From: Acheta domesticus
Lineage: Eukaryota; Arthropoda; Insecta; Orthoptera; Gryllidae
Reading direction: 5' to 3'
Length of the DNA stretch: 64,000 bases
Assembly (NCBI GenBank): GCA_031308135.1
Contig: JAHLJT010009436.1
Span: forward strand, 140,142,303-140,206,302
The notes under the pieces were generated by a model, which saw nothing but the letters and a program-made list of their open reading frames with translations, was not told the DNA's origin and made no database searches. The position numbers and the translations under genes were made by a program. Shown one piece after another: positions 14,401 to 46,533 of the stretch; the stretch's first letter is position 1, and each line of letters begins with the position of its first letter.

Positions 14401-17400
14401 TAAGTAATATAATTTCTTTTTAATAAAATACTTAAATGATGATATATGTAGACTTTATATACTCGTAAAGAACAAAATTAAAACATAATTCTACTCACAA
14501 TTCTGTTATTTACAATGGTCTCCGTACAAAATGAGAAACAAATATTTGTTTCAAATACTTAGAAAATAGCTGAATGTGACTTCACCGACGCTTTAAATTA
14601 CTTTCGGTTGTGTGACTTTTTCTTTTTTCTTCGTCTTTTTTTCGTCTTCCTCGTCTTCATCTTCTTTGTCGTCATCTTCTTTGTCGTCTTCTTCTTCGTC
14701 GTCTCCTCCTCCTTCTTCGTCATCTCCTCCTTTTTCGTCGTCGTCTCCTGCTCCTCCTTTTTCGTCGTCGTCTCCTCCTTTTTCGTCGTCGTCTCCTCCT
14801 TTTTCGTCGTCGTCTCCTCCTTTTTCGTCATCGTCTCTTCATTTTTCGTCGTCGTCTCCTCCTTTTTCGTCGTCGTCTCCTCCTTTTTCGTCGTCGTCTC
14901 CTCCTTTTTCGTCATCGTCTCCTCCTTTTTCGTCGTCTCCTCCTACGTCGTCTCCATTTTCTACGTCATCTCCTACTTCGTCGTCGTTTTCTTCGTCTTC
15001 GTCGTCTTCTTCTTCGTCGTTGTCCTCGTTTCTCTGTCTTTCTCTTCGTCGGTATTGTACTGGAGTTTAATCAACACCGCCTACTCTAGTTAGGTGGCGT
15101 TGATTTAGTTCGCGGCATACTTACCAAGATCACAGCGCCAAAACACGAAAAAACACTTTTTTGGAAATTTCTTAGAATTTAATAGCCATTTCTGGAAACA
15201 AATTATCAGTTCCCCATTAGGACGCCGAGATGCGTCGAATGACACCTCGTTTGTCTTCACTAGTGCACGGGAAGTAGTCTACCCGTGAGAGACGGAACGG
15301 CTCATCCGCAAGCATGCACACGAGGAGTTTACTCAAATACTCTATGTTTCCTATTATCTGTCCGAAAGGCCTTGTACCGACAAAGTGTTCCACATCGCAT
15401 GAACTTACTGGTGTATATTCAAACTTTGTCCCAACATGTTACTGTTCATATCAATGCTATTCACGGATTAGGGAATAAAAACAATGCTGGTTGATATTTA
15501 ATCAATTGACTCTTAGCACAAATTCAGCTTTCTTTAACAATGTTCTTACCCAAGACGCTATTGCTTGACTTCTCTAAAAAGATAAACCAAACTTTGCCTA
15601 TGGCAAATTCCCAGTCTGCGTTACCACAAGGTTTAAGCCAATCGCCGTGAATTATTTTCTGTCCTTTTCTGATCCAAATGCTGTAGTGCCACATCATGAT
15701 TTTACTATAGATTTTCACCTCACAGAGATACTTTACAAACAAGGGTTTAGGCTCTAGTGCAACAAACGGGGAAAGAAAACTGTCAATGGCGCTTTCTGAG
15801 CTGCGTTGGTGTGTGTAATTTTTGGCGAAGGGCATTACGGTCAAGAGAGACCTCTGAAAAATACGTTGTGGGCGCGAGTTATCGCTTGCTAGACGTACCA
15901 TTTTCATACACAAAATTTATTTCTGGGTAGTATTTTGTTCTCTGCTTTACTCACGCTGAAATCTACACACTTGAAGCTTTGTAGTGCAACACCTTTCCCT
16001 TTTGTAGGATTCTGCGTGCTGCAATATCACCTTTTTTATGCATTGCAATAGCGCCAATTTGGAGAGGAGGCTGCCGAAAAATTGTTTGACAATGCTTAAT
16101 TGTTTGTCTTGGTTATTCCTTATCAAAAACATGTAGGATAAATGAAGAATTATACAAAAAGTGCAGAAAAACGAAAATATTAAGAAATATTTAAAAATAT
16201 GTACTTTTGTGAAAAATATGTAAATATATGTACTTTCGGGTAAAATATGTAAATATATGTACTAAAAAGACATCGGTTTTAGGCCTTAATCGACATGAAA
16301 CGTAAATATATTGTGGTTTTGACTTGATAGAGTTAACATACGGAAATATGTAATTACATAATTATCCGGGCCCTAGTAATCATCCATATTTTTAAAGTCA
16401 AAGTGGAATTCGTCAAGTCTCCGTGAAATTCTCTTTCTTTGGAGCCCTCATTTATAAAGATTGGTTGCGTGTGAGAGCCGGAACCCAAAGGTATACTACT
16501 GAAATAATACAGGAGACGATTATGCTTCGAAAGTCAGTAGAGGTGTTAGGACTGATTTTAACTTTGGTATTTTTTATGTTTGCTATGAAATTTGGTGTAA
16601 TTTTTTTATTTTGATGAAATTATTAACTTGATCGATGTGAGCAACAAATATTGGTGGGTTTCTATCATATTCTACACTTATTTGATCTTGTTTGTGATCA
16701 GCGTGATCATAGCGAGAAACTTTGCAAAGGTAGTTGCACTGTCACCAAGATCAATGGGTATTGTGCTCACTCTGATACTATCTCGATCTCAACTAGTTCG
16801 CGGTGTAATCTATTCTGCCCGATCTTAACTCAACAGTGACGTGTTTCTCTCTCGATCTCAATTTTATCACGTCGTGTTCTGTTCTGTCTCTCTGCCCACG
16901 GCCCCAACACCGCGAAGCTGTCTCTTCCCCTCTCATTTTGCTCGGCGAAACTCCACTCTATTTCTCATTTACCCAATGATTATCCAGTTTGATTTTAACA
17001 CTTACCACAGTTTCCCTATTGGTTCGTAGGATTTAGGTCAACAAGCTACGCCGTACTCTGCTCCAGGGGCTCTAACTTGCAGACGTGCAGCAGTTAAATT
17101 CCCGAGGAGGGCAATCTTCTTCCGGAGTCGGTGTTGTTCCTCCTACATTGATCGGTTTATTGGTACTCGGCCGGTCCGCGTGCTCGCCTCGTTCCGCCTA
17201 TCTGCCCGATAGTGAAATCGAACGTGAGCGCGTTGGCGCTCGGCAGCTTGCCGTTTGTTCCAGTCTTCAAGCCATCGTCCAACAGCCATCTCAAAGGGCT
17301 GCTTTTGTGCCGAGCGTCCACCTCGCCTTCATTGCTCCCCGCTCCGCGTGGGCCGTAAATCTGTCGAAGCGGTAAAGCTGGTCGCTCAGGCCATGCAGCT

Positions 17401-35830: not shown

Positions 35831-36092
35831 CGAGTAAAGACCCGTAGACGATGGGCCCAGGGAGGAAGGCGAGCGCGCAGAACAGGAACTCCCCCAAGGC
35901 CAAGGCCAGCGACTTATCTTCTTCGTCCACGCATCTGATCTGGATGAGCGTGTTGCCGGCCTTGCCCGAGGAGCCCAGCAGGCGCATGAGGCACTGCGTG
36001 GCGAGGAAGAGGCCGAAGTTGAAGGCGCAGTCGCGGGGGCACGGGCCCTCCACCACGAGCCCGTCGGCCGAGCACGCGCACGCCGAGAACAC
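35831..36092 (-). CDS. Oatp gene 2, coding exon 9 (Kazal-like loop, part 2; TM10-TM11)
   Basis: 262 nt, acceptor GCGCGCAG|GTGTTC, donor ACTCG|GTGAGA, phase 0 to 1. It encodes VFSACACSADGLVVEGPCPR with the remaining loop cysteines, TM10, then NTLIQIRCVDEEDKSLALAL, which matches the Oatp R-[CS]-V-x-[ED]-x-[DE]-K-S-[FL]-A motif, and LAFLPGPIVYGSLLG (TM11). Confidence 0.95.
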
Positions 36093-39482: not shown

Positions 39483-39930
39483 ATGGACCGGAGAAGCAGG
39501 ATCAACAGAAGGGGAGAGAAAGGGGGAAAAGTGTGGAAGGGGGAGAGAGAAGGAGATGGAAGGGAGGGAGAAAAAGAGGGAGAGAGACAGGATAAGATTT
39601 AGTGAGAGAGAGGGGTAGCGAATGGGAGTAGAAAAGAGATGAGAGAGAGCCAAAGAAAGAGAAAAGGATGGAATGAGAGAGAATACAACTGAGAGAACGA
39701 GAGAAAGAGTGAGATAGAGAGACATAGGGTCGTTGGAGAAAGAGACGTGGAGAGGGGGAGAGAGCGAGGCACTGGAAGAGTGACAGGTTGAAGAAGAGCG
39801 ACCGATGATAAAGGAGGGAGGGAGAAGGACGGAGGAGACAAAAGAAAGATAAAGAGGGAGAGAGAGCGAAGGAGGGAATGGAGGGAGAAAGAGGTATGTG
39901 GGGGGGGGAGGGGAGGAAGGAAAAAATGCA
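39483..39930 (-). repeat. Long CT-rich (polypyrimidine) tract just after the exon 8 donor
   Basis: The transcribed-sense strand is almost pure CTCTCCCTTT-type sequence for ~440 nt beginning 9 nt past the exon 8 splice donor; the plus strand is GGGAGAGAGA. It accounts for the long open frame running on from exon 8, which is not coding. Confidence 0.9.
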
Positions 39931-39938
39931 ATGCTCAC

Positions 39939-40285
39939 AGTGGTGCCGTTGAGCAGCGCCTGCGCCGCGCCGCAACCCGCGTGGCACGGCGAGTAGAAGG
40001 TGGTGCCCGAGCTGAGCGCGCACACGGGCTCGTACTTGACGTCGGGCCCGCAGGCGCACACGGCGTTGCAGGCGGCCGTGAGGTTCCAGGCGCCGTCGCC
40101 GCCCACGCTGCCGTGCAGGTCGGGCTCCCCGCAGCTGAGGAAGGCCCACGAGAAGTGGCCCAACACGTCCACCACCTCCACGCACACGCTCCACGCGGCC
40201 AGCACGCGCGCACGCGGCTTGAACTTGGAGATGACGATGGCGGACGACGCGATGCCCAGGCCCGAGAACACCAGCCCCACTGAAC
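39939..40285 (-). CDS. Oatp gene 2, coding exon 8 (TM8-TM9 and Kazal-like loop, part 1)
   Basis: 347 nt, acceptor TGACGCAG|GTTCAG, donor ACCACT|GTGAGC, phase 1 to 0. It encodes GSVGLVFSGLGIASSAIVIS (TM8), KFKPRARVLAAW, TM9, then the extracellular loop with LTAACNAVCACGPDVKYEPV and CALSSGTTFYSPCHAGCGAA. The C-x-C...PVC...T-[FY]-x-SPCHAGC pattern is the Kazal-like domain of Oatp. GC content is very high. The first ~44 nt and the splice site are the unit of the tandem array lying directly upstream in the transcript. Reading open past the donor is intronic. Confidence 0.95.
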
Positions 40286-43200
40286 CTGCGTCACACCAAC
40301 CACATTCACCCATTCGACATTCAACGGGAAGGACAGGAAAATGGGATGCTCAAAACATATCTTCTTAAAATGGCTAATGAGACAGTGAACGACGCGATGC
40401 CTAGGCCCGAGAACACCAGCCCCACCGAACCTGCGTCACACCAACCACATTCAACCATTCGACATTCAACGGGAAGGACAGGAAAATGGGATGCTCAAAA
40501 CATATCTTCTTAAAATGGCTAATGAGACAGTGAACGACGCGATGCCTAGGCCCGAGAACACCAGCCCCACCGAACCTGCGTCACACCACAACACATTCAA
40601 CCATTCCACATTCAACGGGAAGGACAGGAAAATGGGATGCTCAAAACATATCTTCTTAAAATGGCTAATGAGACAGTGAACGACGCGATGCCTAGGCCCG
40701 AGAACACCAGCCCCACCGAACCTGCGTCACACCAACCACATTCACCCATTCGACATTCAACGGGAAGGACAGGAAAATGGGATGCTCAAAACATATCTTC
40801 TTAAAATGGCTAATGAGACAGTGAACGACGCGATGCCGAGGCCAGAGAACACCAGCCCCACCGAACCTGCGTCACACCACAACACATTCAACCATTCCAC
40901 ATTCAACGGGAAGGACAGGAAAATGGGATGCTCAAAACATATCTTCTTAAAATGGCTAATGAGACAGTAAACGACGCGATGCCTAGGCCCGAGAACACCA
41001 GCCCCACCGAACCTGCGTCACACCACAACACATTCAACCATTCCACATTCAACGGGAAGGACAGGAAAATGTGATGCTCAAAACATATCTTCTTAAAATG
41101 GCTAATGAGACAGTGAACGACGCGATGCCTAGGCCCGAGAACACCAGCCCCACCGAACCTGCGTCACACCACAACACATTCAACCATTCCACATTCAACG
41201 GGAAGGACAGGAAAATGGGATGCTCAAAACATATCTTCTTAAAATGGCTAATGAGACAGTGAACGACGCGATGCCTAGGCCCGAGAACACCAGCCCCACC
41301 GAACCTGCGTCACACCAACCACATTCACCCATTCGACATTCAACGGGAAGGGCAGGAAAATGGGATGCTCAAAACATATCTTCTTAAAATGGCTAATGAG
41401 ACAGTGAACGACGCGATGCCGAGGCCAGAGAACACCAGCCCCACCGAACCTGCGTCACACCAACCACATTCACCCATTCGACATTCAACGGGAAGGACAG
41501 GAAAATGGGATGCTCAAAACATATCTTCTTAAAATGGCTAATGAGACAGTGAACGACGCGATGCCTAGGCCCGAGAACACCAGCCCCACCGAACCTGCGT
41601 CACACCACAACACATTCAACCATTCCACATTCAACGGGAAGGACAGGAAAATGGGATGCTCAAAACATATCTTCTTAAAATGGCTAATGAGACAGTGAAC
41701 GACGCGATGCCTAGGCCCGAGAACACCAGCCCCACCGAACCTGCGTCACACCACAACACATTCAACCATTCCACATTCAACGGGAAGGACAGGAAAATGG
41801 GATGCTCAAAACATATCTTCTTAAAATGGCTAATGAGACAGTGAACGACGCGATGCCTAGGCCCGAGAACACCAGCCCCACCGATCCTGCGTTACACCAC
41901 AACACATTCAACCATTCCACATTCAACGGGAAGGACAGGAAAATGGGATGCTCAATACATATCTTCTTAAAATGGCTAATGAGACAGTGAACGACGCGAT
42001 GCCTAGGCCCGAGAACACCAGCCCCACCGAACCTGCGTCACACCAACCACATTCACCCATTCGACATTCAACGGGAAGGACAGGAAAATGGGATGCTCAA
42101 AACATATCTTCTTAAAATGGCTAATGAGACAGTGAACGACGCGATGCCTAGGCCCGAGAACACCAGCCCCACCGAACCTGCGTCACACCACAACACATTC
42201 ACCCATTCGACATTCAACGGGAAGGACAGGAAAATGGGATGCTCAAAACATATCTTCTTAAAATGGCTAATGAGACAGTGAACGACGCGATGCCTAGGCC
42301 CGAGAACACCAGCCCCACCGAACCTGCGTCACACCACAACACATTCAACCATTCCACATTCAACGGGAAGGACAGGAAAATGGGATGCTCAAAACATATC
42401 TTCTTAAAATGGCTAATGAGACAGTGAACGACGCGATGCCTAGGCCCGAGAACACCAGCCCCACCGAACCTGCGTCACACCACAACACATTCAACCATTC
42501 CACATTCAACGGGAAGGACAGGAAAATGGGATGCTCAAAACATATCTTCTTAAAATGGCTAATGAGACAGTGAACGACGCGATGCCTAGGCCCGAGAACA
42601 CCAGCCCCACCGAACCTGCGTCACACCAACCACATTCACCCATTCGACATTCAACGGGAAGGACAGGAAAATGGGATGCTCAAAACATATCTTCTTAAAA
42701 TGGCTAATGAGACAGTGAACGACGCGATGCCTAGGCCCGAGAACACCAGCCCCACCGAACCTGCGTCACACCACAACACATTCACCCATTCGACATTCAA
42801 CGGGAAGGACAGGAAAATGTGATGCTCAAAACATATCTTCTTAAAATGGCTAATGAGACAGTGAACGACGCGATGCCGAGGCCAGAGAACACCAGCCCCA
42901 CCGAACGTGCGTCACACCACAGCACATTCAACCATTCGACATTCAACAGGATAGACGGGAAAGCTGAAATGATGTCTGCTTAGACGTACTGTTGAGAATG
43001 TGCACAACACGAAGCTCACGCCTCAAGAACATCCGTCCCACCGAACGTACGTCACACCACACCTCATTCAGTCATTCATTGGGCATCCAACATTGCCGGT
43101 GGAGAATTGGGATGCAGAGAGAATATCTACTGAAATTTGAAGATGACGGTAGCGGTCGTTGCGAAGTTGATGCCAGAGAACCTCAGCCACATCGAATCTG

Positions 43201-43434
43201 CGTTACATCATAACAAAATCAATCAATCATTTGACATTCAAGAAGGCATACGTAGAATGTGATGCGCAAAGGGTGCTGCTTAAACTTGCAGATGAGAAAG
43301 TGGACGACACGATATCTAAGTCCGAGAACACTAGCCCGTCGAATGTACGTCACATCATAGTATGCTCATTAATATGGCAATCAACTGTGCGTACGAGGAA
43401 TCGTGATTTTCAAGCAGTGTCTATTTGTTCTTAG
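40246..43434 (-). repeat. 145/146-bp tandem array built from the intron 7/exon 8 junction
   Basis: Units recur at 40391, 40536, 40682, 40827, 40973, 41119, 41265, 41410, 41555, 41701, 41847, 41993, 42138, 42284, 42430, 42576, 42721 and 42867 (position of GACGCGATGCC), with the real exon 8 start as the zeroth copy at 40246. About three strongly diverged copies follow to 43,434. Each unit contains, on the minus strand, GGTTGGTGTGACGCAG| (the true 3' splice site) and then ~44 nt of exon 8, followed by intron-like sequence. Two unit types, 145 and 146 bp, are interspersed. Plus-strand 62-residue open frames are a by-product of repetition. Confidence 0.97.
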
Positions 43435-46368
43435 AGATGAGGAAGGTAGTAGCTATGGTCTCTAGATTAGCGCTTGCTAACTCAATGCTCTGTGACGTCA
43501 CAAATATCAGCTCTCTTGAACTGAATCGAGCGTCGGAGCAAAGCAAGTGCCGGACGTAGCGACAGGCATACAGTATTCCAATGATGGTACGGAAGTGAGA
43601 GAAAAAGGTTCGCTTGATAATTACGTTTTTAAATGGTAATTATAATTTAAATGTTTATGATTCAATAAAAATATGATAAATTAAAAAATAGAACATACAT
43701 TTTCTGAACAGAGGTGCAACTCATTTTTAATTGTAAATTAGAATGACATTATTCCTAAACGTTTCAAAACATAACCTCGCGCTGTCATTGGCCAGTGTCC
43801 ACGCCGGGCGGGCCCGCCGCGCCGGTCCCCTCCCCAGAGCTGATGCAATATCTCGTAAGAAAAGAACTGTGGAACGATGGAGCTTAACACGGCTGGATGT
43901 GTCTGTCATGCGCTCTGCAAAATTCTCTAATTTTGTGTGAAACACAGTTAGTGATTAATCAACAGTGTTAACGCGAGTGTAATTTGTTTTGCCAATTCGT
44001 AATGGGCGTTTGCATTATCTCAGTGACAATCTGCCTTCCGGCATGCATTTATTAACAGTTGCAATGAGACTTCGTCACGGCTGCACGTGTGTGTCATGCG
44101 ACCCGCAAATTCTCTAATTTTCTATAAATCAACTAGTAATTAATCAACAGTGCAAACGCAACTGCAATATGTTTTGCAATTCGCAATTTATGTTTGTATT
44201 AACTCACTAAACAATCTGCCAAACGCCACTCTCTATAATCGAACGCATTTATTACGCGCTCTTCAACCTTTTCTAAATTCTTAAAAATCACCAATTGAAT
44301 AATTACCCCGAATACAGATCTAACCCACAAAAAGTTGAAAGTTGAGATTTTAGTGGAATAGTGACCTTTTGGACGAAATACACAGCCCCGTCGATTCTGA
44401 AGGCGCACTGGCCATTCCAAAGTAAGTTATTCCTTAGATAAAGTTGGCCTATTGGCGAATAGTAATCTATCTGCAACAATATGTCAGATCGAAGTTAGTA
44501 TATTATGAGAGATAGTGCCTTGATTAAAATTTGACTTCAGAGTGATTCACAGATCATAATATATTGATGGGATGTAAGATGTTTACAGAAATAAATTAAT
44601 TTACACAATTAGAGGTTTATTCTATTTCTTGAAAGATTTTCTTTTTGTGGGTTAGATCTCTATTCGGGGTAACTATTCAATTAGTGATTAGTTAACGGTG
44701 CCAACACCAGTAACGTGCCCGCAACTGCGAGCGGCTACAACTCCATAATCTTCAGGGAAGTGCATTAATTTTGTTTCTTTCCCTTCATAAATGCTGACAT
44801 TAATTTCACGTGAATTTGTTCTATTCCTATTAACAGGATAACCACATGCCAACGGTATTCTGATACATTTTTCAATTCATTTCACAATGGTAAAAGCTGC
44901 ATTTGTTTTAATTTCATGTAATGTTGGTGCAGTTCTTTAATTAAACGTATTAAACTCAAGTGTGTTTCATTCCAAAGTATGCATGCTACTCAATTTCAGC
45001 AAGCGGTGATTGTCTGCCGTTATTAATTGAGACAATTGGTCATTCGAGTTGTAAGGTGAGTTAGAAGATGAGTTATTGTTGGATGCGGGAGTGTGGTATG
45101 CAAAATTACTACAATTCTAAGTCACAGCTCATTGTTCGCATACACCCTCCCACAGCCTTAGTAGACTGAAATTTTCAACATACTGCAGTTCTTTCAAACA
45201 CACTAAACGCTTCGCCATTGTTACAGGATCTACAAAAGAAACATTTCTTCCCAAATAGAAAGAAAATTAATGGGCGTAATTGGGCTCTCATGTTGCCTGA
45301 AACACAGGCAATGGCCAAGGCTGTCGATCCCTCCCCCCCCCCATTGCTCGCACCGCTTCTCCGAGTGCCTTCTCGCGGAGGGGAATGGTACCCTCACGTC
45401 ATTTCTCCTTCAGTTGGCTATTGCTGCTCTAGATCACCAGTCTCACGGGACCTATATCGTCTCACAGGAAATGCATGAAAATATTCGAAAAATATCTTAA
45501 ATAAAATGTCTATATTTTTTAGGAGAAATGTGAGTACGGCGGCCGGAATTTTTGTTGGGTAGTTCAGCTTACCTGTGAGGCATTTGTGGATGGGATGGGG
45601 CGACCAGCACGTCGACAACACAACTTTGTCGGTCCCAAGCCCGGGTAAACAATGAGAGTTTGTGTATTTCTAGTACGGCATTGCTTCCACTTTTTTAACC
45701 CATTAACTGCTACAGCTCCCAATTGAAAATGTCAGAACTTGTTCATTGATGCGTAATAATGTGTAATTTAACTTGAAAATTTTATTTCTTCAATCAATGT
45801 TTCTTAAACGTAACATATAAACAAATGTTTTCATTCCTGAATGCCAGATGTCTAGTTAGCCGTAATCCCTAAGTCAGTCCTGGCCAAGGTATACATGTGA
45901 CTTGCGTCGGTTCGAATCTTCATTTGAAATAGTCCTTAGCTGCTGTATGCCTGTGGTTAAGTCGGAGGGAGACGCTACACAAAATTAGAAAAACCTACTA
46001 GCTTCATGAAGAGACTCCGATTTCAATAAAGTTTTCGCATGCTTAAAATTATGCAATTTCTAAACAAATATTAAATCAGAAAGCGCTTTATTTTTTTAAA
46101 ACATTTTTCCACGGATTGACGAAAGAACGCTTAAAAGAATGACGTGGCTCTTATTGTCGTTGAACTCTCTGTATTTTCTATATTTGCAAGTTTAGAAATA
46201 ATGCAAAAATGTATGTACTCTTGTTGCACCACTAGTTCAAATTTCCAAATATACATTGAAGCTCCAGTAATTGAAATACACGCTCTAAAGAATGGTAAAG
46301 AAGAATTCGGCAGCAGAGAACGACGACTTACGTTACGTTCGCAGCATGAATTTTACACTTCTACTTAC
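43435..46368. other. Intron 7 of gene 2, distal part
   Basis: Contains a ~190-bp tandem duplication (about 43,890-44,220, shared TTAATCAACAGTG, TGTCATGCG, ACAATCTGCC), an inverted pair around 44,280-44,340 and 44,645-44,700 (GATCTAACCCACAAAAAG), and a GC-richer patch at 45,290-45,640 with short open frames and a chance CACAG|GTAAG. No exon is recognised. Confidence 0.5.
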
Positions 46369-46533
46369 CTGTTATAAGACTAGCACGTGATGCTGATTGG
46401 CGATACTGGGTCTCCATGTATTTGGGCATGAAAGTCCAATATCCAGTGAAACCGAACATAAAGCATACGCCACTAAGAGTGTTGAATACCAAAATTCTAT
46501 TCCGCAGTAATCTTTTCATCACTGATACAAAAT
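46369..46533 (-). CDS. Oatp gene 2, coding exon 7 (TM7)
   Basis: 165 nt, acceptor TTTTCAG|ATTTTG, donor ATAACAG|GTAAGT, phase 1 to 1. It encodes DFVSVMKRLLRNRILVFNTL, SGVCFMFGFTGYWTFMPKYM and ETQYRQSASRASLITG. The motif [FY]-x-P-K-Y-[ML]-E-x-Q is typical of Oatp after TM7. Confidence 0.95.

Follow-up and report, generated by a model that had tools for sequence, protein, structure and literature searches.

Splice-acceptor copies in a mirage-type minisatellite before exon 8 of an OATP 74D-like gene of Acheta domesticus: predicted decoys that are probably mostly ignored

Minisatellites located at intron-exon boundaries, known as mirages, have been described in lancelets, where RT-PCR suggested normal splicing and where, for the globin and Adh3 mirages, published data suggest no interference with regular splicing (PMC3087553). 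The unit of the BflGb6 mirage measures 150-160 bp, with 6 copies in one haplotype and 3 in another (PMC3087553). A related arrangement is the VNTR in intron 18 of human ABCA7, in which a 25-bp unit carries a splice donor. With longer alleles of this VNTR the following exon is skipped more often and expression is lower, and retention of a single unit breaks the frame and ends in a stop (PMC5954066). Human segmental-duplication paralogs contain internal tandem repeats, some of them at exon-intron boundaries (PMC2812944), and tandem duplication of AG/GT segments has been put forward as a route to intron gain by Rogers 1989 and later (as cited in PMC3087553 and PMC2812944). No insect mirage was found among the matches listed in the open-access literature (the best 25 of 32 and 12 of 69 in two listings), and the cricket locus described here would, as far as those matches show, extend mirages beyond lancelets.

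The locus lies in the window, the 64,000-nucleotide stretch of A. domesticus DNA that was analysed, where intron 7 meets exon 8 in an OATP 74D-like gene that we designated gene D; its tandem paralogs were designated A, B and C. A mitochondrial-type COX1 of the genome was 98% identical to a Gryllidae cluster, which places it among the true crickets. In both lancelet and cricket, the unit consists of the 3' end of an intron and the 5' part of an exon, many but not all copies bear splice signals, and homogenisation of the interior leaves out the edge copies. Compared with the lancelet mirages, the cricket array is located in an insect, has 21 upstream copies, and belongs to a repeat whose low-copy versions are shared among four paralogous genes, across which the exon itself is homogenised. 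With the ABCA7 VNTR it shares a tandem repeat adjoining an exon, a splice signal in the unit and an out-of-frame stop; ABCA7, however, has a donor in a 25-bp unit with measured length effects, whereas the cricket has acceptors in a 146-bp unit. The human paralog repeats are likewise a case of recent paralogs whose gene structure was altered by minisatellites, possibly with new introns, but they average 30-bp units in 4 copies, half of them in coding sequence (PMC2812944). Duplication of AG/GT segments also makes spare splice signals; unlike in intron gain, no new intron or exon position is seen in the cricket sequence.

Gene D lies on the minus strand. The protein predicted from its definable exons and the family-matching part of exon 1, traced as far as exon 10, matched the Pfam OATP family (E 1e-149), and the same set of exons joins into one open protein. 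Its best relatives with a name were a protein from Gryllus longicercus, at 82% identity, and proteins labelled 'family member 74D' from other insects; the exon 8-9 part was matched by human OATP structures. Exons 7 and 8 are numbered as in the preliminary description; a separate exon 6 was not found in our own reading. Exon 7 (46369..46533, minus strand) ends ...ITG in phase 1 at the donor CAG/GTAAGT (the slash marks the cut). The true exon 8 (39939..40285, minus strand) is 347 nt long with a GC content of 71%, its first ~42 nt are part of the repeat, and it ends at the donor ACT/GTGAGC (39933..39938, minus strand). Exon 9 (35831..36092, minus strand) follows, and its first 163 nt are near-identical in gene C too. 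The G. longicercus protein, which may itself be a gene prediction, is continuous across the exon 7-8 junction as the true acceptor predicts. Two other tracts were observed in the window: a long GA-rich (plus strand) tract in intron 8 immediately past the exon 8 donor (39510-39930), and long CTT/CGTCGT-rich tandem repeats with 21-bp units at 14616-15031.

TRF analysis of the window reported a tandem repeat at 40244-42962 with a period of 146, 18.7 copies, 97% matches and a score of 5074. When copies were cut at the junction and counted in transcript order (minus strand), 21 tandem upstream copies of a ~146-bp segment that straddles the intron 7/exon 8 junction were obtained, 3 decayed and 18 near-identical, and exon 8 proper closed the array at 40285. 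The decayed copies, which fall into two distinguishable unit types, start at 43345, 43197 and 43046: D00 (43198..43345, minus strand, type I) has lost the acceptor AG, D01 (43047..43197, minus strand, type II) has kept it, and D02 (42907..43046, minus strand, type I) has lost it. The near-identical units D03-D20, each 145 or 146 bp long, start at 42906 to 40430. In the first of them, D03 (42761..42906, minus strand), the acceptor is mutated to CAC (GCAC/GTTC); the seventeen that follow, D04-D20 (40286..42760, minus strand), each carry a decoy acceptor with AG, so that the AG is retained in 18 of the 21 upstream copies. About half of intron 7 (40286..46368, minus strand, 6083 bp) is therefore repeat (40286-43345). 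The preliminary description had counted about 18 near-perfect and three decayed copies and had taken the true exon to be the last unit of the array, and the junction-cut order bears out both points.

The same description held that the unit contains the exact acceptor and about 44 nt of exon 8, and this part called for minor corrections. GCAG/GTTC is present in the true exon 8 and in 16 of the 17 units D04-D20, the exception being GCAG/GATC at 41886. The match to the first 44 nt of exon 8 is 41/44 in 13 of the 18 near-identical units and 40/44 in the other 5, with none exact, and after these 44 nt the near-identical units diverge from exon 8. Weaker homology of the copies to exon 8, clearest in the old copies, reaches about position 69, which suggests that the ancestral unit had more than 44 nt of exon 8. 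The 18 near-identical units comprise 11 distinct sequences in mixed order and differ at a mean of 3.4 positions (maximum 9). A 4-unit higher-order repeat is suggestive only, being reached by 12% of shuffles. The GC content of the array is 49.6%, compared to 71% in the 347-nt exon 8 block. There was no ORF of at least 80 aa within the array beyond 40368, and Rfam gave no match within the window.

These findings confirmed, at the level of sequence, that the cricket array is a well-preserved mirage of the kind already known from lancelets. The repeat unit spans an intron-exon boundary, the authentic exon is the terminal unit and the copies lie in the intron, the splice signal is found in many but not all copies, and a homogenised interior of 18 near-identical units is bordered by a diverged edge of 3 decayed distal ones.

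A two-unit query was searched against the 2.33-Gb genome, with only the best candidates scored, so that counts are lower bounds. Among these candidates, matches were confined to the array in gene D and the flank of exon 8 in genes A, B and C (exon 8 starts at C6162:140089201, 140131359 and 140237221), and no second allele of the array was found. Self-alignment detected 3 upstream copies in gene A, 1 in gene B and 3 in gene C. Farther out, A and B each have one additional copy that was recognised by eye and is doubtful, at 51-63% match to other copies. The totals are thus 3-4 in A, 1-2 in B and 3 in C, and a long array is present in gene D only. Gene B has its 5' part inside the window and its exon 8 outside; the preliminary description had proposed looking for an array at that exon, and the one clear and one doubtful upstream copy found there do not amount to one. 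The low-copy states of the paralogs, together with a unit that spans the junction, support the earlier claim that the minisatellite grew out of an intron/exon junction, and they hint at how such an array begins.

Outside the four genes, 4 OATP genes elsewhere on the chromosome had no such repeat in the roughly 1.2-1.3 kb that precede the homologous exon, under conditions in which the positive controls A, B and C were detected 3/3. These were the 4 usable loci of 5: the misplaced L044 was left out, and the matches at L040 were simple repeat only. In one OATP gene, E, the intron at the homologous position is only ~80 nt long. A genome-wide search with the exact 12-mer of the junction gave 128 matches versus 73 for the reversed pattern and was uninformative. 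Introns and spacers of the OATP cluster also contain a dispersed repeat of about 1.2-1.5 kb with roughly 70-80% identity, probably a transposable element (for example C6162:140208573-140209999, 140195305-140196469 and 140165018-140166202).

Genes A and D show the succession type I - type II - type I - exon, and C matches it in its last two copies. In a tree of 28 rows from the 34 sequences (the doubtful copies A0 and B0 and the four true exons were left out), the distal copy C0 fell together with the type II copies from A, C and D, and the 18 near-identical D units fell with those copies of A and C that lie next to the exon. Support was moderate, with no fork at the strict threshold, and the proximal copy of C was unseparated from the D units, which gene conversion could also cause. 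We infer that several copies predate the split of the four genes. Short tandem duplications of the junction would have arisen ahead of the split of the four tandem OATP genes, or conversion would have carried them from gene to gene, and they would account for the type I - type II - type I - exon succession. In gene D, unequal exchange or slippage would then have multiplied the proximal type-I copy to 18.

The copy number was taken from one assembly, and it could be argued that the true locus has far fewer copies. The exact number of units in the 2.6-kb array is that of the assembly, and one published lancelet mirage was misassembled in a draft genome (PMC3087553). An assembly artefact would, however, be hard to reconcile with 11 distinct unit sequences in mixed order, with decayed copies at one edge, with a 250-kb region free of N, and with low-copy versions in three paralogs, and we regard it as highly improbable.

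The consequences of decoy use were assessed in silico by joining exon 7, which ends in phase 1, to each AG-bearing copy. As the preliminary description had predicted, a stop was encountered in all 18 cases within 24-37 codons: at codon 24 for D01 and at codon 37 for the 17 near-identical decoys. The latter share a common 36-residue tail, with one residue different in one unit, and an open 347-nt exon resulted from the true exon 8 acceptor only. Occasional use of a decoy would therefore yield a truncated frame, with a near-uniform 36-residue tail in the case of the 17 near-identical decoys.

Acceptors were scored with a rough frequency matrix that serves ranking only. On this matrix the true exon 8 acceptor scored 2.7, as did six decoys; ten decoys scored 1.0, one 1.2, and D01 -0.4. 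The sequence upstream of the true acceptor is identical for 158 nt at the decoys 42615, 42032 and 41449, and for 116 nt at 40721. This shared sequence supports the inference, made in the preliminary description for about 19 near-identical acceptors, that the splicing machinery has to discriminate among near-identical acceptors, with the difference that the decoys with AG number 18, of which 17 are near-identical. The locus can be regarded as a natural duplicated-splice-site experiment, with up to 19 acceptors per pre-mRNA that differ in downstream context and position only (some with an identical 158 nt upstream), and it allows a direct test of what decides acceptor choice by the splicing machinery.

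RNA folding was considered as a discriminator and rejected, since the values for the true site fell among those of the decoys with either size of flank. Its mean unpaired probability in predicted RNA pairing was 0.24 (decoys 0.19-0.36) at one size and 0.31 (decoys 0.21-0.35) at the other, and its AG was slightly more unpaired than the decoy mean (0.52 versus 0.39, and 0.32 versus 0.28).

Because three decoys cannot be told from the true site within 158 nt upstream, we propose that the last acceptor would be chosen by exon definition, through the distance to the exon 8 donor and the content of the exon body. The exon length to that donor is 347 nt from the true site, 492 nt from the nearest decoy and 2822 nt from the farthest near-identical decoy. 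We therefore favor, as the probable explanation, a mirage-type minisatellite with 21 copies before the true exon whose 18 decoy acceptors would for the most part be passed over, since only the last acceptor leads into a complete GC-rich exon with a donor. All four exon 8 acceptors of genes A-D fall within the eight weakest of 25 usable acceptors (of 32 exon-gene cases; 6 without AG at the cut and exon 3 of C were left out), and the homologous-exon acceptors of five OATP genes without the repeat scored 4.0 to 10.9, above those of A-D. Such weak exon 8 acceptors fit a dependence on exon signals.

A different role for the units was suggested by the GT that directly follows the AG at 16 of the 17 near-identical AG decoys and by weak donor-like sites within the units: they might be working cassette exons or recursive-splicing points. 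A recursive splice site, or ratchet point, is a pyrimidine-rich CAG followed by a GTRAGT donor. The units read CAG/GTTCGG (rough score 4.1) in place of the GTRAGT consensus, behind a pyrimidine-poor tract (7-8 of 17 positions in near-identical units), and were rejected as recursive sites. Tandem exon duplication, whether as cassette or mutually exclusive exons, was also rejected, the copies having at most ~69 of the 347 exon bases and no exon donor of their own. Together with the stop in the frame of all 18 AG-bearing copies, these results make the probability of such a working role close to negligible. A donor-like site in the type-a units, TGG/GTGAAT, is weak at 5.0 and nearly equals the exon 8 donor of gene D (5.3 on the same rough scale), which may leave room for pseudo-exons.

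The exon 8 donor of gene D is unusual among the four genes. The last base of exon 8 (39939) is T in gene D and G in all three paralogs, and the rough donor score is 5.3 in gene D compared to 8.9 in the paralogs. The missing G should weaken exon definition where the array is longest. The donor change specific to D and the expansion of the array might together indicate that gene D is losing function, with a weak donor, a weak acceptor and decoys making a poorly spliced copy on its way to becoming a pseudogene. Its definable exons and the family-matching part of exon 1 nevertheless encode the single open OATP protein described above, and we consider this decay of the gene quite improbable.

The weakened donor, found in gene D only, also bears on the suggestion in the preliminary description that the array could act as a tunable splicing brake. 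Under this proposal the decoys would compete for exon 7, and more copies would result in fewer full-length transcripts. Each of the 17 near-identical decoys leads to the same tail and stop, so every additional unit would contribute to the effect. The weak donor would render this balance delicate, and through unequal exchange the transporter dose would come to differ between individuals. Equal or similar acceptor scores of the 17 decoys and their common stop frame are in line with such a poison-acceptor brake set by copy number on the OATP 74D-like gene, and the ABCA7 VNTR offers a partial precedent (PMC5954066). In ABCA7, however, use of the repeated donor was unchanged with repeat size (PMC5954066), and the lancelet mirages were reported without disturbance of splicing (PMC3087553, PMC3902484).

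Retention of the acceptor AG was also compared across decoys, using 13 copies (12 old ones and one array unit), each aligned around its own acceptor. The AG was retained in 10 of the 13, which counts in favor of a brake but was not distinctive as a sign of selection for decoys: the mean dinucleotide of the unit was kept in 6.7, and 16% of dinucleotides were equal or better. Without the doubtful copies A0 and B0, the AG was present in 8 of 11 and was matched or beaten by 31% of dinucleotides. By gene, it was kept in 4/4 copies of A, 1/2 of B, 3/3 of C and 1/3 of the decayed copies of D, in addition to the one array unit; that all seven decoys of A and C retain it is compatible with some use. 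Taken with the published cases, these data leave the brake an unlikely reading.

Mostly ignored decoys remain our favored reading. Exon 8, which they precede, is itself a sharply bounded island of similarity among the four genes. In exons 2, 3, 4, 5, 7 and 10, gene C is 67.5 to 87.9% identical to genes A, B and D, compared to 98.8 to 99.4% in exon 8, where only 6 of 347 sites vary among the four genes. Fourfold sites of C and D agree at 68/69 in exon 8, versus 9/17 in exon 7, 10/19 in exon 2, 11/22 in exon 3 and 2/9 in exon 10; exons 5 (24/27) and 4 (18/25) are intermediate. Past the exon 8 donor, identity falls abruptly to 52-70% in 5 of 6 gene pairs, and in the B-D pair it stays at 82-96% for ~150 nt before falling. 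Upstream of the acceptor it drops to 52-80% in the three pairs with B, whereas the pairs AC, AD and CD keep 82-96% across the adjacent unit. Exon 9 shows the exon 8 pattern in its first 162-163 nt. Because selection at the protein level fails to explain the agreement at silent sites, recent interlocus gene conversion is a better explanation of the exon 8 similarity than purifying selection. Slow change of exon 8 in crickets may add to it: 112 of 115 amino acids are identical to G. longicercus in exon 8 and 360 of 459 in the rest. The locus combines a coding exon whose first bases lie inside a minisatellite with homogenisation of that exon across four genes.

In gene C (C6162:140210001-140262000), exon 9 is near-identical for the first 163 nt only, and the remainder matches ~1.4 kb further at 77%; the exon may be split. 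Two observations on the assembly (G000) were made in passing. Many mitochondrial-type COX1 copies, some near complete, lie on long chromosomal contigs and are likely NUMTs, and a COX1 that is free of stops in the standard code (G000:C2070:686466-687809), on a 1.45-Mb contig, likely derives from a bacterial associate present in the assembly.
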